Shown: piece after piece, positions 2,360-21,979 of the stretch
Layout of the letters: each line of letters begins with the position of its first letter
How positions within the stretch are numbered: the first letter of the stretch is position 1
From: Limnochordales bacterium
GTDB taxonomy: Bacteria; Bacillota; Limnochordia; Limnochordales; DUMU01
Assembly (NCBI GenBank): GCA_014896315.1
Contig: JADBKP010000003.1
Span: forward strand, 184,134-248,133
DNA length: 64,000 bases
Reading direction: 5' to 3'
Program-made: the position numbers and the translations under genes
Notes under the pieces: model-generated
The model's input: the letters and a program-made list of their open reading frames with translations, nothing else
Told to the model about the DNA's origin: nothing
The model's database searches: none

Positions 2360-2671
2360 CTACTGGGGGCGCTCCTCCTCACCGACCCACCACCACCAGT
2401 GGGACCTGGGAGGATTGATCCGTTCTCTGTATCCAGTGTCAATGAACCGACGCACTGCAGCCCCGTACTTGCGCAGCCTGTTGTCTGCAGCCTCAAGTCG
2501 CTGGAGTTCCGACGCCGACAGTTGCTCCTTGTATTGCTCGATGAGATCCCTACCATCCAGCATGTTATCCCAGGCGCCATAGGGGTTACCGTCTGGCAAC
2601 CGCGCCACCATCCGCTCGTAGGTGGCAAGGATCGCTGCCGCGTCGGATATGATGGCCTCGGCCATCCTCAT
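2360..2671 (-). CDS. Small phage head-operon protein, unknown function
   Basis: A 103-residue protein whose start overlaps the end of the MuF gene by 4 bases (ATGA-type coupling). Residues about 40-90 form a charged helical region (LIEQYKEQLSASELQRLEAA); the tail is basic and tryptophan-rich (SHWWWWVGEEERPQ). No known motif is seen. The coupling to the MuF gene supports a real gene, perhaps a head accessory or connector protein, but the function is unknown. Overlapping frames on both strands look like shadows. Confidence 0.6.
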   Translation of the reverse strand: MRMAEAIISDAAAILATYERMVARLPDGNPYGAWDNMLDGRDLIEQYKEQLSASELQRLEAADNRLRKYGAAVRRFIDTGYRERINPPRSHWWWWVGEEERPQ

Positions 2672-4164
2672 CCCTCCAGAGGCTTGATCTCGACGAAATC
2701 GCTTTGGGCGCGAAAGTAACTCTGCCCTTTCGTGATTTTCCAGAAACCAACTCGTGCGTCTTTTGCGATATTATACACCAAGCCAACATTCCGAAGCACT
2801 TTCCCGGACCAGTGGATCCTGTCGATGTAGACTGCCAGTTCCTCCCCTGCCTGGCGGTGGACATAATAATACACCGCGGCGCGGGAATCTCCCAGCAACG
2901 CCTCCTGCAGGTCTTCGAACTCCTTCAGCTCCAGGGCCCTGCCGAGCTCTTTTACCCAGTCGCCCCGATGATCAGCATACTCAGCCTTGAGGGCTCTCGA
3001 ACTCTCCCAGCTAGACGCCCGTATCACTTCCAGGACCTGCTCGGGCTTGTATCTGGCCTTGATCTGGTCAGGGTCTATCCTCGCTCCTAAGCTGGCTGGG
3101 AAACGCAAAGAGATAGGCGTTACCTCTTTGCGTTGCCCCGCGTACACGGAGCGGTACCACCCCTCCAACCCGGGTTCAGTGGCAGGGTTAGCTTGCCAGC
3201 GTCGCAGGCGTTGGACAAACTCCTCAGGCGTCTCATGCACCGGCACAAGCACGCACAAGCAGTTCGGGTGGGCAGGGTACATCGGTTCGTTCCCCGGGGC
3301 ATACACTCCAGGTCCTAGCCCGAAGTCGTCCCGCTCAGCCAGGTCGTTGCACACGTCGGGCAGTGGGTGGGCACTGCTGAGTATCCAGCGCATCCCCTTG
3401 TAGCTCGGGCTTACCCGAGCAGCAGAGATAGCCCCTTCCCCGAACGCAGCGGTAACTTCCGTTCGGGCCAAGCGCAGCCCTTCGTAAGTCAGATTTGCCG
3501 GTATGCGCCCCTTCAAGCGCTTCATCATGTTGGGATATTGACGGGCAAGGGTCTGCGCGCCGTTGCTGACGTACCCCTCCAAGGCCCGGGCCAGATCCTT
3601 GGCATCCATACCCGTCGCCACGCCCGTTTGGATGATCTCTTTCATGGCGTCGCGAACCTGCTGACCTTGCTGCCAGATCCGGTCGGACAGGAACAGCCCG
3701 TTCTTGGTCCTGGCCCAGCACGCCTCCACGGCTTGCTGGTTCACCTGGGCAAATAACCGAACGACAGGACCAACCTCCCAGTTGGCCTGCTTCGCCAGAG
3801 AAACCATGATCGCTCGGGAGTAGCCCGTGCCAGCCTCCACCGCTTTCGTGATGTGGACTTTCAGCTTAGCGGTGTACTCGTCGTTAAAGGCTTTGGCAAC
3901 CTCCTCGAGCTCGGTCTGCAGGTGCCGCAACCGCGTGCGCAGTACTGCGTCTGATGGCCACCGGTTCCTGGCCCGCAGCAGCTCGCCAGCTCGACGGGCT
4001 GCTTCAAGGTACACCTTGCGGATTTCCGGGTCTTGGCGGAGGCGCAGGTCCACATATTGTTTACGGGCCTCCAAAGCCCAGCGCACGTACTCGCGGTCCC
4101 TGGCTGTGTGCCGGATCTGCTCCGCCAGGTTGCGGGCATACTCGTCCGCAAACGAGTAGGCCAT
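2668..4164 (-). CDS. MuF-like phage minor head protein with C-terminal extension
   Basis: A 498-residue protein. Residues about 200-330 hold the Mu gpF/SPP1 gp7 head-morphogenesis domain: LARTEVTAAFGEGAI, then the signature CNDLAERDDFG...MYPAHPNCLCVLVPV with the H-P-N-C cysteine motif. Such proteins sit on the portal and help in head assembly or DNA ejection. The portal gene lies 4 bases upstream, as expected. About 150 residues follow the MuF domain (from about position 350) and read like a small separate domain ending in DARVGFWKITKGQ. MuF proteins can carry C-terminal toxin domains, but the type here is not recognisable. The ATG start has AAAGGGG 8 bases upstream. Confidence 0.85.
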   Translation of the reverse strand: MAYSFADEYARNLAEQIRHTARDREYVRWALEARKQYVDLRLRQDPEIRKVYLEAARRAGELLRARNRWPSDAVLRTRLRHLQTELEEVAKAFNDEYTAKLKVHITKAVEAGTGYSRAIMVSLAKQANWEVGPVVRLFAQVNQQAVEACWARTKNGLFLSDRIWQQGQQVRDAMKEIIQTGVATGMDAKDLARALEGYVSNGAQTLARQYPNMMKRLKGRIPANLTYEGLRLARTEVTAAFGEGAISAARVSPSYKGMRWILSSAHPLPDVCNDLAERDDFGLGPGVYAPGNEPMYPAHPNCLCVLVPVHETPEEFVQRLRRWQANPATEPGLEGWYRSVYAGQRKEVTPISLRFPASLGARIDPDQIKARYKPEQVLEVIRASSWESSRALKAEYADHRGDWVKELGRALELKEFEDLQEALLGDSRAAVYYYVHRQAGEELAVYIDRIHWSGKVLRNVGLVYNIAKDARVGFWKITKGQSYFRAQSDFVEIKPLEG

Positions 4165-4167
4165 GGG

Positions 4168-5688
4168 CTATGCCCCTTTCTGCAATGCTTTTGCTTCGCT
4201 CTCGAGTAGCTGGCCTTCCTCCAATCTGGCCAGCAGCAGGCGCGTCCGCAGAATCCGCTCTCGCTCACCCGGCACTTCCGGATCGTCGCTGATGTAGTCG
4301 TTCATCGTCGTGATGTACTGGGCCAGGAACTGCGCAGCAGCATCCAAGCTGATGAACCCGCCCTGCAGCGCCGTGTTGAGGGCGTTGGTGATCCGCTCCA
4401 GGGTCTCCGCCACGTCCTTCGCGTCCCTCGGGTCGATCTCATCCCACTCGAGGGTGGTGGCATAGGTTGAAAACTGGCGCCCTTCTGCTTGGGCGGTCAT
4501 GGCCAACACGATCCGGGCCAGCCTCTGCCAGGCCTCGGTGAAGTACTCACGCTTGCGGGCAATACGCCGGACCAGGATCGGCATCTGCTCCTTGACACTG
4601 GAGAGGCTGGATGGGGTATGCACCCCGAAGACGAACTCCGGGATTTCGCTGGTGTCAACGATGCAGTAGAACAGGAGCTGCAGTAGGTCTTTGGCATCGC
4701 CAATAGCTGATCGTACCTCGATGAACCCTGCGTCTTCGCCATCCTGGAAGATCAGCAGCTCGTGGCCATCAAGGTTGATGGTTCCACCCTTACTGGCAAA
4801 CTCTGCCGGGTTGGTAATCCCAAAGTTGTTGGCAAGAAAGCCAGCCACGTCTTTGAGCTGGAGCTTCAGCCTTGGGGTGCTGTGCATCTTGGACCCCTGA
4901 ATGGCGTGCATCAGGACGTCATGATAGGCCTTAAGGAACGGTTCGATAGGCTCGATATCCGAACGCCCGAACTCCTGGGTCTCGTCTCCCTCGTTCTTGA
5001 AATGTACGATGGGCAGGAAGCCCCAGGGGTTGCGCTCTTCCCCAGGCTGTATATCAGGTGGGACATCTCCTTCCACCTGCACCAGTCGCCTCTCCGCACT
5101 AATGCGCTGGGTGATAATCGCCCGCCGGTACCTCCCGTCCAAGTCGGTCCACTCGTGTTCGCTGCGCAGCACGTACTCCCGAGGTGTCCGCGTCACCGGG
5201 TCACGAATGATCTGCGCCACCTGTTCGGGAGGAATCAGTGTGAGCACGATCCTGGCCTGGGCCTCCGGGTACAGCGCTTTATCCTCAGCCTCTTGCCGGG
5301 TCACCCAGACGAATGCATCCCCGTCCCGCAGCGCGTTCCGGTGAATCTGCTGCATGCGGGAAACGTTCGCGCCAAACACTTCGTCCAGCACAGCCTGGGC
5401 TTCCGGGTCCTCCGAACGAAACCGGGGCACACCCATGAAGGCGACAGTGGTGTTGATAACGGGCTTGGCGAACCCCGCCCCCAGCTTGTAGGCGTCGTCG
5501 GTGTTTTCGTACAGGGCCCGGGCCTTGGCGTAGTCCACCCGGCTACTGTCCAACCGGTAGGCCGCCGCAAAAAAGCCGCCCGTAATCCGATAACTCCCCG
5601 AGGAAAACAGCAGCGAGCGCAACTTAGAGATCTCGCCCGTCGCCCACCGCAGAAGTCTCGGCTTTGGTCTGGCTATCCGGGTCGCCAC
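4168..5688 (-). CDS. Phage portal protein (SPP1 gp6-like)
   Basis: A 506-residue portal protein, the dodecameric ring through which DNA enters the head. Supporting patterns are the N-terminal YRITGGFFAAAYRLDSSRVDY region, NAL.RDGDAFVWV, PWGFLPIVHFKNEG (a proline-rich segment common in this family), the long central helix PFLKAYHDVLMHAIQG, and the later PEFVFGVHTPSSLSSVKEQ with a crown-like helical tail. Length and position between terminase and MuF fit. The GTG at 5688 is chosen because GGAGGTGA sits 8 bases upstream; an in-frame GTG at 5697 is possible. The start lies inside the preceding HEXXH gene, a 65-base overlap. Confidence 0.85.
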   Translation of the reverse strand: MATRIARPKPRLLRWATGEISKLRSLLFSSGSYRITGGFFAAAYRLDSSRVDYAKARALYENTDDAYKLGAGFAKPVINTTVAFMGVPRFRSEDPEAQAVLDEVFGANVSRMQQIHRNALRDGDAFVWVTRQEAEDKALYPEAQARIVLTLIPPEQVAQIIRDPVTRTPREYVLRSEHEWTDLDGRYRRAIITQRISAERRLVQVEGDVPPDIQPGEERNPWGFLPIVHFKNEGDETQEFGRSDIEPIEPFLKAYHDVLMHAIQGSKMHSTPRLKLQLKDVAGFLANNFGITNPAEFASKGGTINLDGHELLIFQDGEDAGFIEVRSAIGDAKDLLQLLFYCIVDTSEIPEFVFGVHTPSSLSSVKEQMPILVRRIARKREYFTEAWQRLARIVLAMTAQAEGRQFSTYATTLEWDEIDPRDAKDVAETLERITNALNTALQGGFISLDAAAQFLAQYITTMNDYISDDPEVPGERERILRTRLLLARLEEGQLLESEAKALQKGA

Positions 5689-6013
5689 CCGTCTCACCTC
5701 CAGCCAACAACCCGTTGTCGATCAGCAGGGCAATCGTTCCCGTCCCCAGGACCTCGATAACCTGCTCCAGCTCCACCTTCTCGTCGGTCTTCCAAATCCC
5801 GGCGTTCGCTAGAATCCCATGCATGGCCTCATGGAACAAGGACGCCCATATGCGCTCCAGAGAAGGCATAGCCGAGAGCTTGATTTCGTGGGTCATGTGG
5901 TCTATTTCCCCAAACAACAATCGCCCCTGCTCATCCCGCAGAGGCGATTCCCGGAAGATCCGCACCGTATAGGTATATGGCCCGATCTTCAGACTCGTGG
6001 GAATCGGTCTCAT
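5624..6013 (-). CDS. Phage-encoded HEXXH (putative zinc peptidase-like) protein
   Basis: A 129-residue protein with LFHEAMHGILANAG at residues 59-72. HEAMH at 61-65 matches the HEXXH zinc-binding motif of gluzincin and SprT/ImmA-like peptidases. An upstream beta-hairpin stretch (YTYTVRIFRESPLRDEQG, then FGEIDHMTHEIKLS) is typical of small phage HEXXH proteins placed next to terminases. A downstream glutamate (KVELEQVIEVLG) could be the third ligand. The ATG at 6013 has AGGAGG six bases upstream. The gene lies between TerL and portal and overlaps the portal start. Its role is unknown; similar proteins are seen in siphophage packaging operons. Confidence 0.65.
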   Translation of the reverse strand: MRPIPTSLKIGPYTYTVRIFRESPLRDEQGRLLFGEIDHMTHEIKLSAMPSLERIWASLFHEAMHGILANAGIWKTDEKVELEQVIEVLGTGTIALLIDNGLLAGGETGGDPDSQTKAETSAVGDGRDL

Positions 6014-6029
6014 GAGTAGCCTCCTATCC

Positions 6030-7499
6030 CTAGCCATAGACCCTCGCCCGTCTCAGCACTTGCGCGGTTACAGGATCTTGCCTCGCCGCCACGGGTGCGA
6101 ACGCCATCGCAACCGCGTCGCCCCAGTCAGGCGAGTCAAGTCCTTTGCGTCGCATCTCCTCTTTGGACTGGAGCTTCATCTGACCACTGGACGTGTAATG
6201 AAACTTCCTCGACGTGAGCTGGGAGATCACCTTACGATTGGCAAACACTGGACCACCAATCTCCTGGGAGCGCAACTTGTCTGCCAGAAGTCCCCACCAT
6301 TCAGTGCCTGCGTCCGCATACTTGCGGTCGTCCAGGGGCTTAGCCCCGGCGTTCATTTCCATGATTTGAACGCCCGGGCGCAAACGCCCCTCTCGCTGCA
6401 GCTCCCGCAGGCGGTCCACGACTCCAGCTCCCATGCCCACTACGTCTACCTTGAGGACTTTCGCTTGTACCCGATCAGCAAACGCCAGAAGCCTGCCAAC
6501 CGTCTCCATCGTGTCCTGCTTCTGGTGAGACTCTGCCGCAAAAGCGCACGCGCCAGCTCGGGCAACGAATACCGTCTCGTCGCTCCCGTACCTGGCAATG
6601 TCCGCGCCAACCTCCACGTCCCCTTCGGGCTGGTAATCCTGGTTGGCTGCGATTTCCACCCAGGTAATCGCAATGAGCGTGTCTGTAAGCTGCGTCGGGA
6701 ACTGGCCCAGAATCCTTGACTGCCAGAGGAACGAGCCCTCGCCCCAATCCTGACGGGCGCTCTCCACATCCTCCGGCGTCACTAGACCGGGTATCACCAC
6801 ACCCCGCCCTTGCAAATTAGGCGTGTCAAAGGCGCTGATGTGGGTCGTCCACCACCCGGGTGAAGAAAAAGCCCGGAAGAACGTACCTTCGAGGCTGGTC
6901 GGATTCCCAATGGCGAGGAGCCTGGTATGCTGACCCCGCAAAATCGCCATGATTCCTTCCCAAATGGGTTCGCTGATCCCCGCCGCCTCATCGGCAATAA
7001 CGAGAAGGTGTGGTGCATGCAACCCCTGGAAAGCATCTGGGTCATAGTCCTTCGTGGCGAACCCAATCGCAAAGTGCTCCTCCGAGAACCGCCAGGTCTT
7101 CGTCAGCAGCTCCCCGCCGAGAGGGTGGCCCGCACGTTCCGCAGCTGCGGCAGCGGCATGGATCTCTTTCCATATGATGTGACGAACTTGTCTATCCGTT
7201 GGCGCTGTCGTTACCACCACGGACGGGCGGTAAACGTCCAGAAACCAGGCAGCAGCGCGGGCAGCAAGCCAGCTTTTCCCAGCAGCATTACAACTTGCTA
7301 CCGCCACTCTGCGATGTATCGCCAAGGCCCGCAGAATCTCCGCCTGCTTCCTCCAAGGCCTTTCCCCTGTCTTGTCCCGAATCCATAGGTCCGGGCAAGC
7401 TGCCCAGATCAATCGTTGACGCTCCTGAGGCGAGAGCTTCCTGAAGAGCTCGTAAGAATCCCTCGTTGGTGGCAAGGTCGAGAGCGATGCTACCGTCAT
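6030..7499 (-). CDS. terL: Phage terminase large subunit (TerL)
   Basis: A 489-residue ATPase-nuclease that pumps DNA into the prohead. The Walker A variant SCNAAGKS is at about 69-76, Walker B LLVIADEA at about 165-172, and the coupling segment IGNPTS follows. The C-terminal RNase H-like nuclease shows the first acidic motif VGADIARYGSDET and the second KVDVVGMGAGVVDRL, with a late DSPDWGDAVAMAF aspartate. The N-terminus is unusual in that its first ~70 codons overlap the 3' end of terS by 212 bases; the conserved-looking stretch LFRKLSPQERQRLIWAACPD and the normal distance to Walker A argue that this start is right. Confidence 0.9.
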   Translation of the reverse strand: MTVASLSTLPPTRDSYELFRKLSPQERQRLIWAACPDLWIRDKTGERPWRKQAEILRALAIHRRVAVASCNAAGKSWLAARAAAWFLDVYRPSVVVTTAPTDRQVRHIIWKEIHAAAAAAERAGHPLGGELLTKTWRFSEEHFAIGFATKDYDPDAFQGLHAPHLLVIADEAAGISEPIWEGIMAILRGQHTRLLAIGNPTSLEGTFFRAFSSPGWWTTHISAFDTPNLQGRGVVIPGLVTPEDVESARQDWGEGSFLWQSRILGQFPTQLTDTLIAITWVEIAANQDYQPEGDVEVGADIARYGSDETVFVARAGACAFAAESHQKQDTMETVGRLLAFADRVQAKVLKVDVVGMGAGVVDRLRELQREGRLRPGVQIMEMNAGAKPLDDRKYADAGTEWWGLLADKLRSQEIGGPVFANRKVISQLTSRKFHYTSSGQMKLQSKEEMRRKGLDSPDWGDAVAMAFAPVAARQDPVTAQVLRRARVYG

Positions 7500-7860
7500 G
7501 CTTGAGTTCCACCTGCCCAGAAACCTCCTGCTTCATGCTGACGTCCACCGCCCTCCTCCCCCACCGCTCGGGGTACCGGCGCTCAAGCCACCAGGCGTCC
7601 GCCTGCCAGTTGCCCTCCTTGGCAGCTTCTCTTATGCGTTTGATCCTTTCAGCTTCCGCAAACGCTTCCGCCCTTTTTAAGTCCTGAACAAACTGAAAGT
7701 AGATGCCTGACTTTGCACGCTCACCCTTTTCTCGCCACTTGGCAAACGTCCGGTAGGTGATCCCCGCGAGGGCGCAGGCCGTTTCGTAGTAGTTACCTGC
7801 AGCAACAGCATCGACGAGTATCTTGATTCTCTCAGGTGTTAACTTGGTCGGTCGTCCCAC
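7288..7860 (-). CDS. terS: Phage terminase small subunit (TerS)
   Basis: A 190-residue protein with an N-terminal helix-turn-helix (TPERIKILVDAVAAG..YETACALAGITYRTFAKW), followed by a helical stretch (FVQDLKRAEAFAEAERIKRI) and a WWLERRYPERWGRR motif. This is the layout of TerS proteins that recognise the packaging site. The start at 7860 lies inside the end of the ParB-methyltransferase gene (29-base overlap). The last ~70 codons overlap terL in another frame. That tail is low in complexity and rich in glycine and serine, so it may be tolerated rather than structured. Confidence 0.85.
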   Translation of the reverse strand: MGRPTKLTPERIKILVDAVAAGNYYETACALAGITYRTFAKWREKGERAKSGIYFQFVQDLKRAEAFAEAERIKRIREAAKEGNWQADAWWLERRYPERWGRRAVDVSMKQEVSGQVELKHDGSIALDLATNEGFLRALQEALASGASTIDLGSLPGPMDSGQDRGKALEEAGGDSAGLGDTSQSGGSKL

Positions 7861-9838: not shown

Positions 9839-10251
9839 TACGCGACTTGGCCGCCCTCTCGGGCGGCCCGCAGCTTCCGTTCCCATTCCAGGAACTCCTC
9901 TGGCGATGCTTTTTCTAGCACCACCCTGGTCTCACACCTGGGAGGATCGGGCTTCCAATCCCCGCCCATGTACTCCTCTACGGTTAACTCTGAAAACTCA
10001 GGGGCATGCCCCCTCAGCAAATACACGGGTATACCCACGTTCAGGAAATGGTTGTAGCCAAGTACCTCTGCAAATGTTACCCGGTCATACGGTTGCTTGT
10101 AGTCCAATATGGCAACGATGCCCGGGACAACCTTGCTGACCAGGGCGAGGTCAACATCCATGGCGTAGAGGTCAGTTGCCAACTGTTTGTGCCAGAACTT
10201 GAACTCATCCCGTGAAGTTGAACCTTTCAGGCGGCGGAGGTAGTTACCCAT
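9838..10251 (-). CDS. Putative PD-(D/E)XK nuclease-like phage protein
   Basis: A 137-residue protein with MDVDLALVSKVVPGIVAILDYKQ near residues 27-50. An acidic residue in a strand followed by D-x-K in the next strand resembles the PD-(D/E)XK core, and a helix TFAEVLGYNHF with a glutamate follows. The C-terminal third is charged. The ATG at 10251 has a GGAGGGAGCGGGG site and lies inside the end of the upstream ParB-MTase gene (25-base overlap). The nuclease idea is inference from a short motif only; it could instead be a small accessory protein. Confidence 0.5.
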   Translation of the reverse strand: MGNYLRRLKGSTSRDEFKFWHKQLATDLYAMDVDLALVSKVVPGIVAILDYKQPYDRVTFAEVLGYNHFLNVGIPVYLLRGHAPEFSELTVEEYMGGDWKPDPPRCETRVVLEKASPEEFLEWERKLRAAREGGQVA

Positions 10252-11588: not shown

Positions 11589-11630
11589 CTCGGAAACCCC
11601 TCCCTCGTGGTCTCCCTCGTGCAGGCACGA

Positions 11631-11668
11631 AAAAGGGGCTGCAGCCCACGAGGGCAAGCTGCAGCCCC
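11631..11668 (-). terminator. Intrinsic terminator after the tRNA-like gene
   Basis: On the minus strand, an 11-bp perfect stem (GGGGCTGCAGC paired with GCTGCAGCCCC) closes a 12-base loop and is followed by TTTTT. It lies between the tRNA-like gene and ParB-MTase fusion 2, so it probably ends the DUF1599-tRNA transcript. Confidence 0.8.
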
Positions 11669-11704: not shown

Positions 11705-11776
11705 TGGTCGCGGGCGCGGGAGTCGAACCCGCCGTGCCAGAGGTATGAGCCCTAGCTGAGCACCGGCCCGCCCGCC
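11705..11776 (-). tRNA. Degenerate tRNA-like gene, anticodon CAT
   Basis: On the minus strand 72 bases fold like a tRNA. The T arm (GCGGG TTCGACT CCCGC) is perfect, a genomic CCA end is present, the anticodon loop CTCATAC gives CAT, and the acceptor stem GGCGGGC pairs with GCCCGCG except for a G-G first pair. The D arm is short and hard to pair, which explains the length below 76. It could be a phage tRNA-Met or tRNA-Ile2-like molecule, or a decayed one. A strong terminator follows. Confidence 0.6.
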
Positions 11777-12584: not shown

Positions 12585-15500
12585 TTACAGCAGCTGTTCT
12601 TGTGTGCCCCCGCGAATTCGGCTCAGCGTAGGCGGATTACGCATCTCATCTGGGACCGGGGGCAGTTCCTCCGACTCGAAGCATGGGCCGGTTACGATAG
12701 CCTCCAGCAGTTTTTCCTGTTCAGGATAACTTGCGACAGTCTCCTCGAGCACCCAAAGTAATTCGAGTAGTTCGGTGGTGCATTGACCTGTCCAGCGTTC
12801 GGGGCGGATGAGATCTAGTGGCGACGATTTCTTCCCAGCCCCATGTTTCATGCGGTAGCTGAGCCATGACTGTACGACGACGAGCCCCGAGACCTCGAAC
12901 CGGTACACCTCTGATGAGACGGGCCGGAACTCCCCCTCGCCAACATGGAGCGTTCGCGTCTCCTCATCGTAGTAAAATGACTCAGGATACCTGTCGGGAT
13001 CTCCTGGAACAGCCTTGACGCATTTTGCCTCCCCGGGCGGGATATACCCGAGTGGTTTTCCTGGAGGTACTAGCCGCTCACCATAGGTGTGCAACCACAG
13101 AAGATGTGCTCCTACTTTGCGTACCTTCTCAAACAACTCGGCGTTCTTTGTGAAGGGCACGCGCAATTCGCAGGTCTCTAGTTCTTTCGCGTAGCGCACC
13201 GTGAAGGCAGGTTGGGCTAATACGCCGTAGACATAGGCTAAGAAGTCTTCGGGCGTAACGTCACGTCCATATGCCTTGCCAAGCAACTCGAGTAGACCTG
13301 GAATAATGTTTGCCTCCGAAGCATCAGAAGATCGATAAAGAGGAATCGTGTCCTTGGCGCCAAAAGAACCCTTAAAATGATGAAGGTCTGGAATCGCGGC
13401 ACACGCGGTCAGCGCTGGCCCAGCACCAAGTGGTTCGTGGAGAAGGGTGGTGATATATATCTGCCGTTCACTGTGTACGCGCCAGAGATGAGGACGTAGG
13501 CGGTCCCCCAGTCGGTTATCTGCCAAAACCCACTGGCGGTCAAAAGACCGATATGCATATCGTTCTATCCTCGGTGCAGGAGTATTCTTGGGAAGGTCTA
13601 CCAAGGGCTTCTCTCGCTTATCACCGGTTATCGAGGGATATCCGACGGTTATCTTTCGGTCTGGGGTCTCCCTGAATGCCTCGGCCATATCTTTCGCGTT
13701 CAATAACGCGGTCCAGCGAATGCGGAGTGTTTCTGGATCGTGGCATATAGGCCATGTCCGCTTCCACTGTACGCCGGAGTGCTGCCATGGCATGAGGTCC
13801 GTAAGTAAGGGCCATCTGAAGTATTCTCCCTTCCCTACAGGTCGGAAGGGATCGTGCCAACCATTAGGACAGTCCTGCCACTTTACAGAACCAAAACCGG
13901 CAATGGTATCAAGTGTGGCAAGCTTAGCATCTCGACTACCTTCAATGCGAGCGTAATGGACCTTGGCAGGCTGATTTTCATTCGTTGGGCCTGAACGCAT
14001 AGCAATAGCGATGGCGACTGGAGTCCGAATGCTCGGAAAAATGTTATCGTCCTTGCGAGGCCCACGTTTCTCTCCGCCAAGATCCAGAACCCAGATTTCA
14101 TCGCACTGCCTACGCAGGTATTCTCGCATCCCGCAAAACGCGTCACCATCGAGATAACTAGATGCACTAATGAAACTGATAACACCTGGACCGCCAGAAT
14201 CCATCTGCTCCAAAACCTTCCATAATGCCCAGCGCCAAAAATAGACATAGAGGTTATATAGATTCTTAACATCGCGACCATGACCAGCTGCAATCGCGGG
14301 GTCGAGGAAATCTCTCAAGATCGGTCTTTTGCCACTGTCAGGATCGTTAGGATCGCCCCACCGGACCCACCCACCCGTGCGTGCGCGATTGTCCGTCCGT
14401 GCTGCCTCATGGCGGTCATAAGGCGGATTGCCCAAGCAGACGATTACAGGAACGTCGCTCTTGACCTTCAAGGCCCTAGCGTGCTCGTCAGCAATGGGCC
14501 TGAGGAAGAGAGGTACCTGCGGGGGCTTAGCGTGAGGGCTTTCCAGTGTGTCGGTCAGGTAGACTCGCGTACCACCCGAAGGTAACTGCGCACCATGATC
14601 TAGCAATGCACGACTCACGCGCAGTTGGGCCACCGCATAGGGGCCAACTAACAGCTCAAAGCCATAGAGATTGTTTGCCAGCACGGATGCCTGGCCCGGC
14701 ACCGCACCGATGCCTTGTTCGTTCTTGACGCGCCCAAGGGCATGCTCAATCACGCCCAAAAGGTAGGTACCTGTTCCGCAGGCCGGGTCGAGCGTGACAA
14801 CGCCCGGCTCAGCAAAACCGAGCGGCTTGCCGAAACGGTTCACAAGAAGGTCATCAATCAGACGAACCTGCGCGTGAACAACCTGTACTGGGGTGTAGTA
14901 CACACCTGCGTCCTTGCGTAGCTTGGGATCGTAGGCACCAAGAAAGTCTTCATAAAAGTAGAGCCATGGGTCACCATTACCGACGAGAGAATATGGCGGA
15001 ACCTCTCCAATGACGCGCAGTAACAGATTGAGCGAAGCAGAGATCTCATCTCGCACACCAATGTCAGTCAAAACTTGGAGGGCACGGGAAAGCAGATTGT
15101 GCTCTGGAGTCAAAGACCTTACAGCTTCTTCTAGGGTAAGCGGATCAGCTCCTTCACTTCTGGCCAGCAACAGTGCAAAGGTAACAGTCTGAGCATAGGC
15201 ATCGGCAAACTGCGCATCAGTGGCGTCGGGGAAAAGCAATTGTCGCCAGTCTTTGGCAAGTTGGACAAGCGAGGAGTTCTGACGTTTTAGTGCATCAATC
15301 ACATCATCCCGCAACATTCGGCAGATAGGCGCCAACAAGCGGGCAAAGTCCTTGAGGTTGATCTGTCCGCTTCGGTTAACAGGTATAATCGGGCGCCACG
15401 ACAGGAAGTCCCGCAAAAGTCTTTCGAGAGCGTCGACGTCCTGAGAGCTAAGAACCACCTTCCCTCTGGCAGCGAAATCTCCGGAAAGCCGAACGATCCT

Positions 15501-15896
15501 TTCAAGCTTACCATTGCGGCACAATACCCACTCCGAGCCATCCGTATAGAGCAAGTTTGGTATAACTGAAAAGCGCTTCCACTGTTGACGGTTATGCCCA
15601 GTGAAATACCTAACATTCGCGCCCGATCCAGGGGCTTTCAACTCGACGTACCCGACGAGAAGGCTGTCCACATGGACTGCATAATCGGGACGCCCCAGTC
15701 GCTCAGGCAGAGGCGTTTCGCCGATGCAACTAACGTCCAAATAGAAGATGCGGCCAACAGTAACCATGAAGCTCTCGAATGGACCACGCAGCTGGTCTTC
15801 GGGCTCACCCGGCGTTAAGAGGAGACGGGCCATTTTAGCAGCCACAACCTCGGCGAAATGTACCACAGCGTCGTAAAAGGTAACACTTTCGGACAT
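12585..15896 (-). CDS. Single-chain restriction-modification enzyme (type IIG/IIL or ISP-like, no helicase)
   Basis: A 1103-residue protein. The N-terminal ~180 residues carry a PD-(D/E)XK-type nuclease site, GRPDYAVHVDSLLVGYVELK, with PD at 70-71 and ELK at 85-87. A helical connector follows to about 330 (GVYYTPVQVV). The N6-adenine methyltransferase core shows the SAM motif LDPACGTGTY near 369-378 and catalytic NPPY at 490-493. The last ~500 residues are a target-recognition-like region. This is the gamma-class order of type IIG/IIL and ISP enzymes, but no helicase motifs are seen, so a type ISP enzyme is unlikely. It would methylate and cut DNA in one chain. It is the last large gene of the defence cassette. 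Confidence 0.85.
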   Translation of the reverse strand: MSESVTFYDAVVHFAEVVAAKMARLLLTPGEPEDQLRGPFESFMVTVGRIFYLDVSCIGETPLPERLGRPDYAVHVDSLLVGYVELKAPGSGANVRYFTGHNRQQWKRFSVIPNLLYTDGSEWVLCRNGKLERIVRLSGDFAARGKVVLSSQDVDALERLLRDFLSWRPIIPVNRSGQINLKDFARLLAPICRMLRDDVIDALKRQNSSLVQLAKDWRQLLFPDATDAQFADAYAQTVTFALLLARSEGADPLTLEEAVRSLTPEHNLLSRALQVLTDIGVRDEISASLNLLLRVIGEVPPYSLVGNGDPWLYFYEDFLGAYDPKLRKDAGVYYTPVQVVHAQVRLIDDLLVNRFGKPLGFAEPGVVTLDPACGTGTYLLGVIEHALGRVKNEQGIGAVPGQASVLANNLYGFELLVGPYAVAQLRVSRALLDHGAQLPSGGTRVYLTDTLESPHAKPPQVPLFLRPIADEHARALKVKSDVPVIVCLGNPPYDRHEAARTDNRARTGGWVRWGDPNDPDSGKRPILRDFLDPAIAAGHGRDVKNLYNLYVYFWRWALWKVLEQMDSGGPGVISFISASSYLDGDAFCGMREYLRRQCDEIWVLDLGGEKRGPRKDDNIFPSIRTPVAIAIAMRSGPTNENQPAKVHYARIEGSRDAKLATLDTIAGFGSVKWQDCPNGWHDPFRPVGKGEYFRWPLLTDLMPWQHSGVQWKRTWPICHDPETLRIRWTALLNAKDMAEAFRETPDRKITVGYPSITGDKREKPLVDLPKNTPAPRIERYAYRSFDRQWVLADNRLGDRLRPHLWRVHSERQIYITTLLHEPLGAGPALTACAAIPDLHHFKGSFGAKDTIPLYRSSDASEANIIPGLLELLGKAYGRDVTPEDFLAYVYGVLAQPAFTVRYAKELETCELRVPFTKNAELFEKVRKVGAHLLWLHTYGERLVPPGKPLGYIPPGEAKCVKAVPGDPDRYPESFYYDEETRTLHVGEGEFRPVSSEVYRFEVSGLVVVQSWLSYRMKHGAGKKSSPLDLIRPERWTGQCTTELLELLWVLEETVASYPEQEKLLEAIVTGPCFESEELPPVPDEMRNPPTLSRIRGGTQEQLL

Positions 15897-15983: not shown

Positions 15984-16457
15984 CTACTTCCACTCCGCCT
16001 GAGCCAGAGCACGCCAGACCAGCAGTGCTCCGTTGTTCTGGCGTTCTGTAGGATGGTCTTTCAGATAAGCAACTACAACATCCTTAACCTGCCCTATTGT
16101 TACGTTGGCAGGCAAATAGGATTCCACCGCACCTTTCAAAAGCAGACGGTCTTCTTCCCTTATGTTGTCCTTTGCTATTACCGCCACCAACTTGCCAACT
16201 ACTTGAACAGGGTGATTTCCGTTGCGTATCATCTGAAGCGCCTCTTCGACAACAGTGTAGTATGCATCCCATACTCCTACCACGTATGCAAGTTGGTCAC
16301 TGGGGTCCAAGTAATAGAGCATGTTTCCGTTAATCACGCCCTGCTGAACGCTTGCCGTGGGCTGATAGGAATCTGTGACCTTACCTACAGTTACACCTGC
16401 ACCGAAAACCAGCAGTCCCGCTGCTAAGGCAATACTTGTCCACTGCCTCTTGTTCAT
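15984..16457 (-). CDS. Secreted Rap1a/Tai-like domain protein
   Basis: A 157-residue protein from ATG 16457 (MNKRQWTSIALAAGLLVFG): a basic start plus a hydrophobic segment as in a signal peptide or membrane anchor. The mature part has NGNMLYYLDPSDQLAYVVGVWDAYY and ends with VTIGQVKDVVVAYLKDHPTERQNNGALLVWRAL. The closing pattern 'v..gQ...vv..yL..hP..r...a..lv..AL' is what I recall of Rap1a/Tai immunity proteins, which protect Gram-negative bacteria from type VI amidase effectors. Finding it in a defence cassette of a probable Gram-positive prophage is odd. No cysteine pair is seen. Function here unknown. Confidence 0.6.
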   Translation of the reverse strand: MNKRQWTSIALAAGLLVFGAGVTVGKVTDSYQPTASVQQGVINGNMLYYLDPSDQLAYVVGVWDAYYTVVEEALQMIRNGNHPVQVVGKLVAVIAKDNIREEDRLLLKGAVESYLPANVTIGQVKDVVVAYLKDHPTERQNNGALLVWRALAQAEWK

Positions 16458-16641
16458 TGATCTGCCCTCCCCGCGCGCCTGATATTGCCATGGTTCTGCC
16501 CACACTGCCACCATCCTGCAATCCTCGCAGAAAAACTAGAGTTCTCGCCGGTGCGAGCTTTCATCGAGCCCCAAGAAGACTGGCACCGCTACCCTCACAA
16601 GCCAGAACAGAAGCGCTGGGAGAACCTGCCTCAGGGTCGCT

Positions 16642-17784
16642 TTAAAAGCACTCGTTTCTCTCGCTTCGGACTCCCTGGAGGCCGACTAGCCCCAGAAACT
16701 CCTCGCGGCGGAAACGCCGCCAAGCGTCGGTACGCCTCGCACGGGAAAGCAGCCACCGCTCTCGGAAGATCCAGAAGAGATGCTCGGTGGGCCAGTCGTA
16801 CTCCTCGAGACGGTCTGCCTCCCCGCGCAAGAATGCAAGAGCATTATCCCCTAGTGGCGCGGCATAGACTTCGCGTTTGAGTTCGTGCCTCAAGACGTCC
16901 TCTGGTAGCCCGAGCAATTCCAGTGCCCGCCGCACGAGGCGGAACTTCCAGTTTGGTCCGCATCCATAGCGGTGCTTTTTGAGAAGTGGGTCCTCTGCCT
17001 CCTCGAGGAGGGCGTGCAAGCCCTCCCAAAGGCCGTTGTAGCTTAGATGGTGGTGACCCCAACCGGCCGTCTCCCCGAGGCGGAAGTAGTAGGTGCGCCC
17101 GCGCGCCTTGAGGCGGTTGTACAGGCTCGAACGTCCTAGGGCAGAAGTGACGGTGATGAGTGCGAGAACACCGTCATGTGGTCTCCCCTTAATCACGCTC
17201 TCTTGACCCCTGTAGCGTCTCCGGAACTCAGCACGGACCTCATTGCTCAAGGCCAACAGAGCGACAAGCTTCCCGCCGAGGAGAAAAGAGTACGGGGGGA
17301 CCGCGCCGAGGACATAAGCATTCATAACGGAGCGCAAGCGCTCCTCCTTTTGCCTCACCTCCCAGCCGATCCATCTGTCGCGACAGGCAAGGTTAAAGAC
17401 CGGGTCGCAGAGACCGAGGATCCCGATTAGCTTCTCGTTGTGCTGGTCGAGTACAAGGAAGCGGAGTCTCCGCCCATAGCCGGAGCTCACCGGCACGCTC
17501 CACGAGAGCGAGGCGAAGCGGAAGAGCATCGAGTCCCTCTCGGTGGCCACTGGAATGACAACGGGGGACATCCGCTCTGGCTCAACCTCGAAGCCGGAGG
17601 CTATGTGTTCAAGGAGCCGTTCCGAGTGCCTCTCAAGGAAGGTCCTGTTCTTCTCGAGCACGTACTGCCGGGCAGGCAGGAATAGTCTCCGGCGGCCCTC
17701 CTTATCCCCGGATGCCGCGCCTGCAGCGAAGTGGCGGTAGAAATCCCAGACCCGTGCCGCAAGTTCCTGAGTCGTCAAACGCAC
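16642..17784 (-). CDS. druA: DruA-like (DUF4338) defence protein
   Basis: A 380-residue protein with the DUF4338 hallmarks in order: FLVLDQHNEKLIGILGLCDP, FNLACRDRWIGW, VMNAYVLGAVPPYSFLLGGKL, LITVTSALGRSSLYNRL, and a late GWGHHHLS. DUF4338 defines DruA of type I Druantia anti-phage systems, whose biochemical activity is not established. Here DruE, the large helicase of every Druantia type, is absent; instead HerA and NurA genes lie upstream on the same strand (47-base gap). The start is GTG 17784 or TTG 17778, after AAGGGGG. The family call is firm; its job beside HerA-NurA is inference. Confidence 0.85.
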   Translation of the reverse strand: MRLTTQELAARVWDFYRHFAAGAASGDKEGRRRLFLPARQYVLEKNRTFLERHSERLLEHIASGFEVEPERMSPVVIPVATERDSMLFRFASLSWSVPVSSGYGRRLRFLVLDQHNEKLIGILGLCDPVFNLACRDRWIGWEVRQKEERLRSVMNAYVLGAVPPYSFLLGGKLVALLALSNEVRAEFRRRYRGQESVIKGRPHDGVLALITVTSALGRSSLYNRLKARGRTYYFRLGETAGWGHHHLSYNGLWEGLHALLEEAEDPLLKKHRYGCGPNWKFRLVRRALELLGLPEDVLRHELKREVYAAPLGDNALAFLRGEADRLEEYDWPTEHLFWIFRERWLLSRARRTDAWRRFRREEFLGLVGLQGVRSERNECF

Positions 17785-17831
17785 ACCCCCTTTCTTTTCT
17801 CCGGACCACCGTTATTTCTCTGGGAAGGCTC

Positions 17832-19613
17832 TCAGCGGAGCAAATTGATGCTGTTTCCTCCGAGGAGCTCACTAGGCCGAGTGAAAGCATCGAAGAAGAG
17901 CGGCGCGCCTGAAAAGGCGAGGGGAGAGACCGGCCCGACGACCATGAAGGAGAAGGTCTTGCTCTCTTCCCCGAATGCCGACTGAGGGTCTTTGAATGAC
18001 TGGTAAAGCCTGATGTAATTCCTCTCCCCTCCAACCAACTCCCGCAATGCCTCGAGCTCGACACCACTGCCGAGGCCGAACCCGAAAAACATCACCCTAA
18101 GCTGCCCAAGGACGTCCCTGTCCAGGCTGGAGAGAGTCTGGCTTATGAACAGCCAGCCGAGGCCGTACTTGCGAGTCGTGCGGACGGCGTCGACCAGTAC
18201 CCTCTTGATCTGTGCTTTCCGCTCGTTCTCCACGCGCTCACGGGGAGCGAAACGGTGGGCCTCGTCGATGACCACAAGGGCGTTGAGGTTCCCCCCCTCC
18301 CTGTAGGCGCGCTCACCGGAATCGACAACGGCCTGCAGGAAACGCTCCACGAGGAGGGGCTTCACCTTGTCGTTCCATAGAGACTCCTCTATCTCCGGCG
18401 GGTGTGCCGAAAGGTCAACGACCACGAGCGGCCTCGCGCCTTGCCCAACGGTGAGGGCCTTCCAGACCACGTATGCGACAGAGTAAGCCCGTTCACGCTC
18501 GTGGAACAGGCTGCCCGCCTGCCTCCATTTCCTCCGTACGGCCGCGCCCAGCGCCGAGTCGGGCTCCTCGAGGACCCGTCTTACGTTTTCTCTTACCCTT
18601 TCCGCACCTGACCGCTGGGCGTAGAGCCTCTCGGCTCCCTGATCGCGGAGGAAGACCAGGGCTTTTTCAAGCACCTCTTCACCTTGCACATTCTTCAATA
18701 AGATGTTTTGGTTCTCGAAGAAGTCCTGAAGGTACTCAGCAGCATTGCCCTGGTACTCCCCCCACTTGATCCCGAGGTCGCTGAAGAAGCCGAGTTGGAC
18801 GAGGATCTCCCTCCAGAGCTCCCACCGGTCCAGCACGAGATTGTCAATGTCAAACACCTCGACCGGACGCCCGAGCGCTCCGAAGACCCTCCTCGAAAAG
18901 ATTTGGTCCATCGAGGACGGGCTCTCCGCCGACCTCGCATCCTTCCCAAACTCGCCCATGGGGTCGAGAACGAACAGCCCCATGCGGGGGTGGCGCGCAT
19001 AGGCGACGAGCATCATCTTCGCGAGGCTCGACTTGCCTGAGCCGGTCTTGCCGAAGATGCCGATGGAATAGGCCTCGCCCGCTCCCCCGGCCCCGGGGCC
19101 GAAGTGCTTGAACCACATGGGCAGCCGCAGCCGGGAGCCGTAGACATAGCCGAGGTAGAAGACCTCGGGCAGGCAGGGGGCGAGGATCTCCCTCAAAAGC
19201 TCTTCCGTGGCGCAGTAGATGAGCGTCCCCGTAGGCGGCACGGTACCCAGCATGGATTGCGTCAGTGTGCCCCCTGTGGAAGCGAAGACTGCCCCCACGT
19301 CCATGGTCGCGGTGTGCGTGTCCTGCCGCCCTTGGACGGTACTCCACCTCTCCCGCTCCCGCACTATGCTGCGCGAGATGGACTGCTCGAGGATCGGGTT
19401 CCTGAGGACGACCTCCGTGATCTGACCCAGGGCGTAGTGATCGAGCCCGTCCTGGGTGTAGTGGAACACCCCCAGTTCCCCCACCAGCTTTTTCCCGACT
19501 GCCGAGCCAAATAGGTCTATCGTCAGTTGGCTGGTGGAGGATGGTGACCCTATCGCTCCCAACCGCTCGCTCAGGCTCAGAAGCTCGGAAAGGCCAGGTT
19601 TCTTCCCCGTCAC
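17832..19613 (-). CDS. herA: HerA-like DNA translocase ATPase
   Basis: A 593-residue FtsK/HerA-superfamily ATPase. The N-terminal ~110 residues read like a HAS-barrel (GELGVFHYTQ... LGQITEVVLRNP). Walker A IGIFGKTGSGKSS is at about 185-197, followed by VLDPMGEFG. Walker B is NALVVIDEAHRFAPRERVENE, then a Q sensor (WLFISQTLSSLD) and a conserved FGFGLGSG stretch. HerA hexamers translocate DNA and pair with the nuclease NurA for end resection in archaea; bacterial HerA proteins often serve in anti-phage systems. The gene starts 4 bases after nurA ends, with GGAGGAGG upstream, so the two are surely co-translated. Confidence 0.9.
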   Translation of the reverse strand: MTGKKPGLSELLSLSERLGAIGSPSSTSQLTIDLFGSAVGKKLVGELGVFHYTQDGLDHYALGQITEVVLRNPILEQSISRSIVRERERWSTVQGRQDTHTATMDVGAVFASTGGTLTQSMLGTVPPTGTLIYCATEELLREILAPCLPEVFYLGYVYGSRLRLPMWFKHFGPGAGGAGEAYSIGIFGKTGSGKSSLAKMMLVAYARHPRMGLFVLDPMGEFGKDARSAESPSSMDQIFSRRVFGALGRPVEVFDIDNLVLDRWELWREILVQLGFFSDLGIKWGEYQGNAAEYLQDFFENQNILLKNVQGEEVLEKALVFLRDQGAERLYAQRSGAERVRENVRRVLEEPDSALGAAVRRKWRQAGSLFHERERAYSVAYVVWKALTVGQGARPLVVVDLSAHPPEIEESLWNDKVKPLLVERFLQAVVDSGERAYREGGNLNALVVIDEAHRFAPRERVENERKAQIKRVLVDAVRTTRKYGLGWLFISQTLSSLDRDVLGQLRVMFFGFGLGSGVELEALRELVGGERNYIRLYQSFKDPQSAFGEESKTFSFMVVGPVSPLAFSGAPLFFDAFTRPSELLGGNSINLLR

Positions 19614-19617
19614 TTCT

Positions 19618-20928
19618 TCACTCCTCCTCCGTTCTGTAACCGTGCAAAACGAGAGAGACGTCGCTGACCTCGCCGGGGTAGCTCCGGAGCACCTCGTGAG
19701 TCAATACCCCACGCAGAGCCGGGAGGGCCACCCCTAGGCTCTTAGCCATCCTGTCCGCGTAGTAGAGGGGCTCGGGCTCAAGGAGGCCCGGCACCGAACT
19801 CTGCCAGCGGAGCGCCTGCAGAGCCATCGAGAGCCGGTAATCGCTCTCTGCTACTGCCCTCGGAACCTCGACCCTCAAGGCTGGATTGCCCGGAGTAGAT
19901 CTGACATACACGACCCGAATCCCGTCCCTCAGCATTTCCTCGAGGTCTTCCTTCAGCCCCCTCGCCTCCGCGTCGAGGTGCTTTTCGCTCAGGTAGTACC
20001 CCGACCAGTCCGGGTCGGAAGGCTGTTCGAGCGGGACGGGGCCCAGAAACTCGCCCGGCCGCAAAAGAAGAGAAACCAGGGCACGGTCGCTCAGTTCAGG
20101 GTCTAGCTGCAGGCGGCTCCCGACCTCCCTCTTCGACGTGTACTTCGGGACACTCAGCCAAATTTTATCCGTGCGCTGGGCGGCGACGACCCGGTGGTAG
20201 TGCCGCACGGCCGAGTTCGCCACCTCGAGGAGCTTGTCGAAGAGCTTCTCCTTCCCGCCGCCGAAGTGCTGGCCCTGCTCGCTTCGCGAGAGAGCCTGGT
20301 GGAGGGCGGAGATCGGCGTGACGAAGGACCCGTCCATGAGCACGACGTCGTGGGGGGCTCCCGCCGCCTGTTCCAGCTCAAAGGCGACCATCAGCGCGCG
20401 GGCGTAAAGCCGATTTTCTCCGCGGTGTGGCTCGACTCCGAGAAAGTGTGAGAAGTGAGGCTCGGGCCAGTAGCGCCGTTCATCAGGTGGCGTCAGCCCC
20501 TCCACAGCAACCCCGACCGCGACAACAAGGTCGTGGCCCACAAGAGCCTCCACTCCGAAGGCGCCGTCGACCCCGCATACCGTCGGAAGAGGGGCCGGCG
20601 GTAGCTCGTCCACCCTCCGCAGGAGTCCTTCCTCCTGCAGGCGCTCGCGCGCCTCCGCGCGGAGGGAGTCAACCTTCCCAAGTAGCTCTGCTACTTTCTC
20701 CCCTAGCTCCTCGCTCCCGGCGACCAGCTTCTCGACCAGCGCCTGCGGAAGCTCGCCAAAATCCTCTGCCAAACTATGGGCTTCAAGCAATCGCTCGACA
20801 CCTCCGCCGATCCCGCCTGGCGCCCTCTTGCCAGAGGCCGCGCGCCGGCGGGCCGCCAAAACTCGCACGGGCCTAAGTGTCTCCTTAGCAGAAGCGGGCC
20901 GTTTTGTGTCCTTGTTCTGCTCAGCCAA
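19618..20928 (-). CDS. nurA: NurA-domain nuclease, HerA partner
   Basis: A 436-residue protein from TTG 20928 (AGGG upstream; a GTG at 20979 would add 17 residues and overlap the small upstream ORF). After a lysine/alanine-rich leader and a coiled-coil-like stretch (VEKLVAGSEELGEKVAELLGK), the NurA nuclease core appears: TVCGVDGAFGVEALVGHD with the first metal-binding aspartate near 121, then VVLMDGSFVTP near 199, and the C-terminal YYADRMAKSLG. NurA cuts single- and double-stranded DNA 5' to 3' with Mn in archaea and needs HerA. The adjacency to herA makes the assignment strong. It is longer than typical archaeal NurA (about 330-400). Confidence 0.8.
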   Translation of the reverse strand: MAEQNKDTKRPASAKETLRPVRVLAARRRAASGKRAPGGIGGGVERLLEAHSLAEDFGELPQALVEKLVAGSEELGEKVAELLGKVDSLRAEARERLQEEGLLRRVDELPPAPLPTVCGVDGAFGVEALVGHDLVVAVGVAVEGLTPPDERRYWPEPHFSHFLGVEPHRGENRLYARALMVAFELEQAAGAPHDVVLMDGSFVTPISALHQALSRSEQGQHFGGGKEKLFDKLLEVANSAVRHYHRVVAAQRTDKIWLSVPKYTSKREVGSRLQLDPELSDRALVSLLLRPGEFLGPVPLEQPSDPDWSGYYLSEKHLDAEARGLKEDLEEMLRDGIRVVYVRSTPGNPALRVEVPRAVAESDYRLSMALQALRWQSSVPGLLEPEPLYYADRMAKSLGVALPALRGVLTHEVLRSYPGEVSDVSLVLHGYRTEEE

Positions 20929-20941
20929 TGACCATACCCTG

Positions 20942-21184
20942 TTAGCCTTGACGTCCCAGTGCCCTGAGAACGACCGCACCGGCTATTCCGAGAACCATCA
21001 CGATCTCTCTGCCATCCCTCCAGGCAAACGCCGGTTCAAGTCTCACCTTCCCCCCACCATCATCAACAAGCGTGATCAGGATCGCTGTCTCGCCTCCCTG
21101 TGCATGTTGGTTCTCCCTGCTCAGCCAAGTCCCTGCCAATTGCAATTGATTGATGAGTTCACACCAACCCCATCCGGATAGCAA
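20942..21184 (-). CDS. Possible small phage protein, unknown
   Basis: An 80-codon frame that overlaps the end of the RinA-like gene by 26 bases and stops just before nurA. It has a hydrophilic N-terminal half and a short hydrophobic segment near the end (EIVMVLGIAGAVVLRALG) that could be a membrane helix. No clear ribosome site supports the ATG at 21184; a TTG further in is possible. It marks the junction between phage genes and the defence cassette. Confidence 0.35.
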   Translation of the reverse strand: MLSGWGWCELINQLQLAGTWLSRENQHAQGGETAILITLVDDGGGKVRLEPAFAWRDGREIVMVLGIAGAVVLRALGRQG

Positions 21185-21596
21185 ACAGCCTAACGATGTG
21201 CGCCCGCCTCCGGTAGAACTCGGACCTGCTCATTACCAACTCCCTGGCCACCGTCTCCACGTCCCAGTCAGGGTGGTCCCAGTACCGTATCCGTACCAGG
21301 TTCTGATCGTCAGCAGGCAGCGTCCGCATGACGCTCTCAATGGCATCGACGATTCGCTTACGCTTCAAGTATGTCATGTGGTGCAATGCCAACAGGGTGG
21401 CCTTCCGCTGGGTGGGGTCGGGCAGCCTCCCCCCATCGACGGGTATCTCGGGGTGCCAGGAAGCCAACAAAATCTCCTGGCGGTCGCGCTCGTAGTCTGC
21501 GACCGCCTGCTTGGAGATGGGGTATTCATACAGCTCCCGTTCCACCAACCGGAAGACCCAAGTCGGGACCTCCGCCCTCACTGCGCCTGCCTGCAT
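21159..21596 (-). CDS. RinA/ArpU-like phage transcription activator
   Basis: A 145-residue protein from ATG 21596 (GGAGG seven bases upstream, inside the end of rusA). The N-terminal part reads FRLVERELYEYPISKQAVADYERDRQEILL, typical of phage RinA/ArpU regulators. The C-terminal part resembles sigma-70 region 4: IVDAIESVMRTLPADDQNLVRIRYWDH followed by a helix-turn-helix DVETVARELVMSRSEFYRRR. Such proteins switch on the packaging and structural genes late in infection. Its place as the last early gene before the late region fits, except that the defence cassette has been inserted between it and its likely targets. Confidence 0.75.
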   Translation of the reverse strand: MQAGAVRAEVPTWVFRLVERELYEYPISKQAVADYERDRQEILLASWHPEIPVDGGRLPDPTQRKATLLALHHMTYLKRKRIVDAIESVMRTLPADDQNLVRIRYWDHPDWDVETVARELVMSRSEFYRRRAHIVRLFAIRMGLV

Positions 21597-21979
21597 TCCG
21601 TCGCCTCCGCGATTTCGACCTCGACTTCGACCCGCGGGTACTGGCGGTCCACCTGCCAGTCCATCACCCGGGGTAAAACCCACCGGTCGTCCTCGAACAG
21701 TTGACCTTTCAGCCCATCCAGCAAAATCTTCCAAATGTTGTCCGTATCCCTGCGCCGGTTGTCTGGCCAAAAGACCCATATCTTGACGACCACTTTCTTT
21801 CCGCTAGGAACACACCGCCACCCGTGGCGAAGCTTGGCTGCTCTGGCAGCCCAGGCTATCGCCTCTTTCCAGCGCTCCGCCTCGCGGGATGGTTTCCGGT
21901 GCACCCTCCCCTTGCGGTCCAGGAAGCGAATGTACATGTGGTTAACCGAAGGTGGCGTCCCCGGGATCACAAACCGCAT
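21578..21979 (-). CDS. rusA: RusA-like Holliday junction resolvase
   Basis: A 133-residue protein with the RusA pattern: VIPGTPPSVNHMY at the start, the catalytic aspartate region FWPDNRRRDTDNIWKILLDGLKG and then LFEDDRWVLP. RusA-type enzymes are homodimeric nucleases that resolve four-way junctions, here for phage replication and recombination intermediates before packaging. The start codon overlaps the preceding stop (TGATG). It ends 19 bases inside the RinA-like gene. Confidence 0.9.
   Translation of the reverse strand: MRFVIPGTPPSVNHMYIRFLDRKGRVHRKPSREAERWKEAIAWAARAAKLRHGWRCVPSGKKVVVKIWVFWPDNRRRDTDNIWKILLDGLKGQLFEDDRWVLPRVMDWQVDRQYPRVEVEVEIAEATECRQAQ

Follow-up and report, generated by a model that had tools for sequence, protein, structure and literature searches.

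A recurring NurA–HerA–DruA gene triad is a candidate prophage-borne defence module sharing a component with Druantia

Introduction

What might DruA, a protein of type I Druantia (DruA-DruB-DruC-DruD-DruE), be doing in a prophage operon together with a NurA nuclease and a HerA translocase? The question is raised by three genes of a Limnochordales bacterium that lie in the window analysed here, a stretch of DNA of 64,000 nucleotides in all. A sequence-only reading had taken these genes for a candidate defence system and had known of no described system made up of exactly NurA, HerA and DruA. A search of openly accessible literature likewise turned up no paper on the triad, which is apparently a HerA–nuclease defence with a Druantia module that has so far gone undescribed. 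Nor did we find a paper explaining the job of DruA in Druantia itself. The reading that we consider fairly probable sees in the triad a self-contained defence module that moves horizontally and travels here as the cargo of a prophage, in which NurA-HerA would degrade invading double-stranded DNA (dsDNA) while DruA would license or target the attack.

Results

The operon and its prophage setting

The three genes are intact and share the minus strand, 4 nt separating NurA from HerA and 47 nt separating HerA from DruA, the layout first described for this locus. They encode a NurA-family nuclease with an RNase H-like fold (19618..20979; ORF of 453 aa opening with GTG; PF09376, E=7.5e-11), a HerA-family ATPase/DNA translocase of 593 aa with a central DUF87 domain (17832..19613; PF01935, E=1.6e-10) and a DruA (DUF4338) protein of 380 aa with a GNAT-like fold (16642..17784; PF14236, E=5.6e-88; PADLOC DruA/DruA1, E=1.6e-113), and the Pfam matches confirm the identities initially assigned to them. 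DruA, NurA and HerA of the triad type each occur once in the host genome. The earlier remark that DruE is missing here was likewise correct: gene calls, Pfam and PADLOC placed none in the neighbourhood of the triad, and the single MZB-domain helicase of the host genome is a 937-aa open frame on a different contig. There is no Rfam match between 10000 and 32000 that would indicate an RNA component, and promoters or terminators flanking the operon did not rise above chance level.

Phage genes on either side bear out the proposed prophage location. Downstream (2668..7860, minus strand) are genes for phage head morphogenesis, the portal and the large and small terminase subunits (phrog_1657, phrog_64, phrog_2 and phrog_4102), and upstream are those for a phage transcription regulator that forms the upstream flank of the cargo zone (21159..21779, minus strand; phrog_36, E=7e-13), a RusA-like Holliday junction resolvase (21578..21979, minus strand; phrog_34, E=4e-25), a replication initiator and a RecE/Cas4-like exonuclease. 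In the stretch from the regulator to the terminase, the triad is accompanied by a gene for a small protein with a C-terminal Rap1a-like domain (15984..16514, minus strand; PF18602, E=5.6e-9) and by a type IIG restriction-modification enzyme that constitutes a separate system (12585..15896, minus strand; PADLOC REase_MTase_IIG, E=0, 1180 bits). A related prophage from another family of the same class (L155) keeps the portal, terminase and regulator but holds other genes, and no triad, at the corresponding site, and the region therefore fits an accessory cargo slot of the prophage.

Several other features of the prophage deserve mention in their own right. The Rap1a-like protein, whose gene separates DruA from the type IIG enzyme, has an apparent N-terminal membrane segment and could be a superinfection-exclusion or immunity-like factor. 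Two genes that fuse a ParB-like domain to a DNA methyltransferase (7832-9331 and 10227-11657, both on the minus strand) separate the terminase from the cargo zone, with a tRNA-Met gene near them (11705-11776), and a transposase-like gene of 534 aa (31778-33382, plus strand; phrog_688) is found on the far side of the prophage early region.

NurA and HerA

The window NurA shares 29-40% identity with its relatives, the window copies of the triad proteins form long branches, and none of the PADLOC and NCBIfam NurA models recognises the protein. Sequence profiles gave no solved relative at E<0.1; the relationship is seen by fold only, in an AlphaFold (AF2) model (pLDDT 82.5) whose top PDB match is the NurA subunit in the HerA-NurA complex of Thermococcus kodakarensis (E=2.4e-14), with further matches to S. 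solfataricus NurA, P. furiosus NurA and the TdpAB nuclease. Across 26 sequences, D138, E160 and D216 are, along with other polar residues, invariant or nearly so, and the position of these three in the NurA domain suggests that they are catalytic; at residue 145 the window protein has an alanine where 24 of the 26 sequences carry an arginine. Since the first ~65 residues of the ORF are predicted to be disordered and are unique to the window copy, having no counterpart in relatives, the true start is probably not at 20928 or 20979 but at a TTG at 20790, which has GGAGG ~10 nt upstream and would give a product of ~390 aa.

Both the Walker A (GKTGSGKS) and the Walker B motif (VVIDEAH) of HerA are intact and are conserved in the HerA alignment (A1), and the protein has profile matches to DUF4297-HerA (8xau), TdpA (8wet) and TkoHerA (9x1l). 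Cultured phage records contain no close relative of this HerA, nor of its DruA. The locus combines the features of a HerA-NurA complex, namely the NurA fold match, the conserved acidic residues and the intact motor motifs, and by homology the effector of the triad would be a NurA-HerA dsDNA nuclease. Physical assembly of the putative pair is supported by tight co-evolution, the distances of NurA and HerA over 29 loci being correlated with r=0.93. In the study of the T. kodakarensis complex, HerA-NurA degraded both dsDNA strands irrespective of how the ends were structured, and a possible role against viruses was the one favoured (PMC12977600).

DruA

Foldseek comparison of the DruA model (AF2, pLDDT 89.6) with the PDB returned almost only GNAT acetyltransferases as top matches, although with E-values of 0.03 or worse; the GNAT assignment therefore also leans on the statement that DUF4338 is a GNAT domain (PMC10853773). 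By sequence, DruA has no solved relative in the PDB. Ten residues (R105, R135, Y165, K172, Y191, S219, Y222, R224, R304 and R348) are retained in the DruAs of triads, of helicase and FtsK-type loci and of orphan genes, and most of them are missing from a short form of DUF4338 linked to insertion sequences. As judged from the alignments, this residue set is the pattern of a working site and not just of a scaffold.

Two other identities for DruA were considered and rejected. Profile comparison gave no match to the Mom modifier of phage Mu, and the gene does not look like an insertion-sequence passenger, being present in a single copy and at full length with the conserved residue set, with no flanking inverted repeats. 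As a separate observation, comparison of the DruA model with BFVD revealed confident structural relatives in the giant viruses Faunusvirus, Yasminevirus and Dasosvirus.

Recurrence of the triad

The sequence-only reading had proposed a survey of whether DUF4338 sits beside HerA-NurA in this genome only; it does not. Genomes were searched with HerA as the sole query, so that the neighbours were not selected for directly, and of the 37 good loci obtained (L025-L061), 33 were informative after three ending at a contig edge and one decayed locus had been set aside. DruA is adjacent in 27 of these 33 intact loci (HerA identity 27-49%), in a sample that leans to the triad branch because most of the six seeds of the search were HerAs from triads. 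The gene order is DruA-NurA-HerA in 21 of the 27 and NurA-HerA-DruA, as in the window, in two, while DruA is convergent in the remaining four. Hosts include Archaeoglobi, Thermoplasmatota, Bathyarchaeota and Aenigmatarchaeota as well as more than ten bacterial phyla, and the triad is also present on three viral contigs, one of which has head and tail genes alongside. Plasmid-borne HerA relatives further out (L004-L009) are without DruA. Among 398 genomes sampled evenly from the host phylum, triad-type HerA occurs in six genomes and full-length DruA in 11, and DruA adjoins HerA in five of the six (Fisher P=3e-8), the genome of the window being itself one of the five positives; in another of them (G031) DruA is split in two frames. 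Recurring as a unit across bacteria and archaea, the triad is very probably genuine and not a chance cluster.

No fourth gene is common to the surveyed triad loci, whose neighbourhoods differ from one to the next. Defence genes found near them include type IIG and type I RM enzymes, Mokosh-like MkoA/C, TmtA and BREX BrxL, and in one case (L025) a TmtA-like gene lies between DruA and NurA. The other six of the 33 loci carry an intact NurA-HerA pair of the same family with no adjacent DruA, indicating that the pair has no strict need of DruA; a family search that does give matches in other genomes detected no DruA elsewhere in these six genomes, which are mostly MAGs and may be incomplete. Outside this set, two loci (L108, 5317-6474, minus strand; L114, 2864-3901, plus strand) pair a divergent NurA-like protein with a distant HerA and a DruA, and may represent an independent assembly of the same triad.

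DruA and its partners

DruA does not follow the tight co-evolution of the other two proteins: over the same 29 loci its distances correlate with those of HerA and NurA at r=0.28 and 0.33 only, which does not speak for a tight protein interface. Closely similar DruAs accompany distant NurA-HerA pairs, as in L030 and L053 (DruA 77% identical, HerA 44%, NurA 39%) or L073 and L032 (DruA 84%, HerA 41%, NurA 38%), and similar pairs accompany different DruAs, as in L073 and L053 (HerA 83%, NurA 77%, DruA 51%). On the DruA tree, the window protein falls within a triad clade of 25 rows (support 94/82), whose sister clade includes the Druantia I-like DruAs of N. watsonii and P. putida plasmids (L150, L151), with large DEAD/DEAH helicases at their loci, a DruA accompanied by a DruE-like helicase and a PD-(D/E)XK nuclease (L109), another that a Meiothermus plasmid carries alongside a DruE-like helicase (L149) and the two divergent NurA-HerA loci L108 and L114. 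Triads are mixed with orphans in a third clade. The triad label requires five changes on this tree, at least three of them forced by well-supported branches, L114 being a long branch.

Because the tree mixes triad, helicase and orphan contexts, and FtsK-type DruAs exist as well, DruA has, on this phylogenetic reading, switched motor-nuclease partners several times, the number being uncertain. The weak correlations, the closely similar DruAs beside distant NurA-HerA pairs and the presence of Druantia I DruA in the sister clade together describe what we read as a portable module, which has been put to use with a variety of motor-nuclease effectors. Two of the other contexts are of interest in themselves. 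At L109 (2-7417), DruA has as neighbours a DruE-like helicase of 1688 aa and a Cas4-like nuclease of the PD-(D/E)XK type, which makes a Druantia-like variant lacking the customary DruB-D, and at L121, L143 and L152 long DruA-region proteins are encoded with large FtsK-domain translocases and two more genes, one weakly like MAD7 (MADS), a set that is possibly another DruA-based system.

Discussion

The triad has DruA in common with Druantia type I, and the window DruA is 42-44% identical to the Druantia I-like DruAs of N. watsonii and P. putida plasmids, but the hallmark of Druantia of any type, the large DExD/H helicase DruE with its DUF1998/MZB region, is absent, as are DruB, DruC and DruD; the neighbours of DruA are instead HerA/NurA, the Rap1a-like gene and the type IIG enzyme. 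Where the motor of Druantia I is DruE, motor and nuclease of the triad would be HerA and NurA. The initial proposal, a system with HerA in place of the DruE motor, sums this up fairly but needs refining, since it is the NurA-HerA pair that takes the position of DruE and the other Druantia I proteins. The DruA tree shows several changes of effector partner, and the replacement could have run in either direction. At the P. putida locus, the gene that follows DruA encodes a CoiA N-terminal domain, so in Druantia I, too, DruA may be joined to both a motor and a nuclease.

Likeness to three HerA systems is equally partial. DUF4297-HerA, a proven HerA-nuclease antiphage complex (PMC11291478), and SIR2-HerA resemble the triad in that a HerA hexamer and its catalytic partner are encoded next door to each other, and the triad HerA matches 8xau by profile, but the triad has no DUF4297 or SIR2 match, its partner gene being NurA, with druA as a third gene. 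TdpABC, which is linked to phosphorothioates, has a HerA-like TdpA and a NurA-like TdpB that are matched by profile and fold, whereas its third gene is of the TdpC phosphorothioation type and that of the triad is DruA, flanked by Rap1a-like, type IIG and phage genes. The archaeal HerA-NurA end-processing complex comprises the same two enzyme families, and its Tko representative gave the best fold match, yet triad neighbourhoods are variable and without conserved repair genes, and DruA is attached.

We propose that NurA would dock on a HerA hexamer to give a motor-driven nuclease, through which double-stranded DNA would be threaded and both strands destroyed, in the way demonstrated for T. kodakarensis HerA-NurA, and that phage resistance might result from this activity of the window proteins. 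DruA would be the exchangeable third component that controls the timing of the attack or the choice of DNA, as a sensor, an adaptor or a licensing enzyme, probably with a GNAT-like pocket for catalysis or ligand binding; this module also serves DruE-based effectors in Druantia I. We infer this role for DruA from its portability, its conservation and its presence at most but not all loci. The six related NurA-HerA loci with no DruA detected there or elsewhere in the genome argue for a trigger, adaptor or targeting part and not an obligatory antidote. Far more tentatively, DruA could be a general portable targeting or licensing enzyme of prokaryotic immunity, with previously unknown chemistry on a GNAT-like fold, that can be combined with three or more unrelated DNA motor-nuclease machines (those of DruE-based Druantia I, of NurA-HerA and of the FtsK type), and the triad a distinct class of defence widespread in archaea and bacteria; we regard this as conceivable but doubtful.

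An abortive variant overlaps with our preferred explanation and differs from it in the selectivity of the DNA attack: DruA would sense infection and NurA-HerA would attack host and phage DNA alike, so that the cell dies. DUF4297-HerA acts in this manner, degrading host and phage DNA and aborting infection (PMC11291478), and DndF-fused DUF4338 GNAT domains have been proposed as back-up effectors (PMC10853773). No sequence feature tells this variant apart from selective degradation, but HerA-NurA is reported to be exonucleolytic (PMC12977600), which would make linear phage DNA better suited to it than a circular chromosome, and we consider the variant somewhat unlikely.

Self-marking has to be weighed against licensing as well. 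GNAT-fold Mom of phage Mu modifies DNA bases, and TdpC marks DNA against TdpAB, whose subunits are matched by NurA and HerA; with the active-site-like residue set of DruA, these precedents could speak for a restriction-modification-like logic in which DruA would place a chemical mark on the cell's own DNA, or on some other self molecule, and leave NurA-HerA to destroy DNA that is unmarked. If DruA were the sole protection, however, its loss would be expected to be lethal, and the six DruA-less loci run counter to this, as do the lack of profile similarity to Mom and the existence of DruAs with no obvious nuclease partner (L111). We therefore hold this logic to be improbable.

The archaeal link of NurA-HerA to Mre11-Rad50 repair, and the prophage recombination genes upstream of the triad (RusA and the RecE/Cas4-like exonuclease), could also be taken to mean that the pair serves phage recombination or DNA-end processing and that DruA is a hitchhiker inserted beside it. 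Such an origin is quite improbable given that the triad recurs in many non-phage contexts and beside defence systems, that DruA is retained in three different arrangements, that the window DruA is a single-copy protein of the full-length and not the short IS-linked type, with no flanking inverted repeats, and that the cargo is absent from the related prophage. Chance adjacency of three families that are each widespread alone is refuted by the HerA survey, with recurrence in archaea and bacteria and a Fisher P=3e-8 in the evenly drawn phylum sample, and is practically out of the question.

DruA is attached here to a simple, biochemically studied two-subunit nuclease in two domains of life, with cassette swaps provided by nature, and the triad offers a minimal three-gene system in which to study the role of DruA. 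NurA-HerA, long discussed as a repair pair, also gains a clear defence-like setting. Naming genes 'Druantia' from DUF4338 alone can mislabel separate systems. A further source of confusion may be the short DUF4338 proteins of 260-335 aa without most of the conserved residues, which can adjoin a DDE transposase (L120, 5112-7321) and occur in multiple copies in one genome (G371), so that some database entries called 'Druantia DruA' are probably insertion-sequence proteins.
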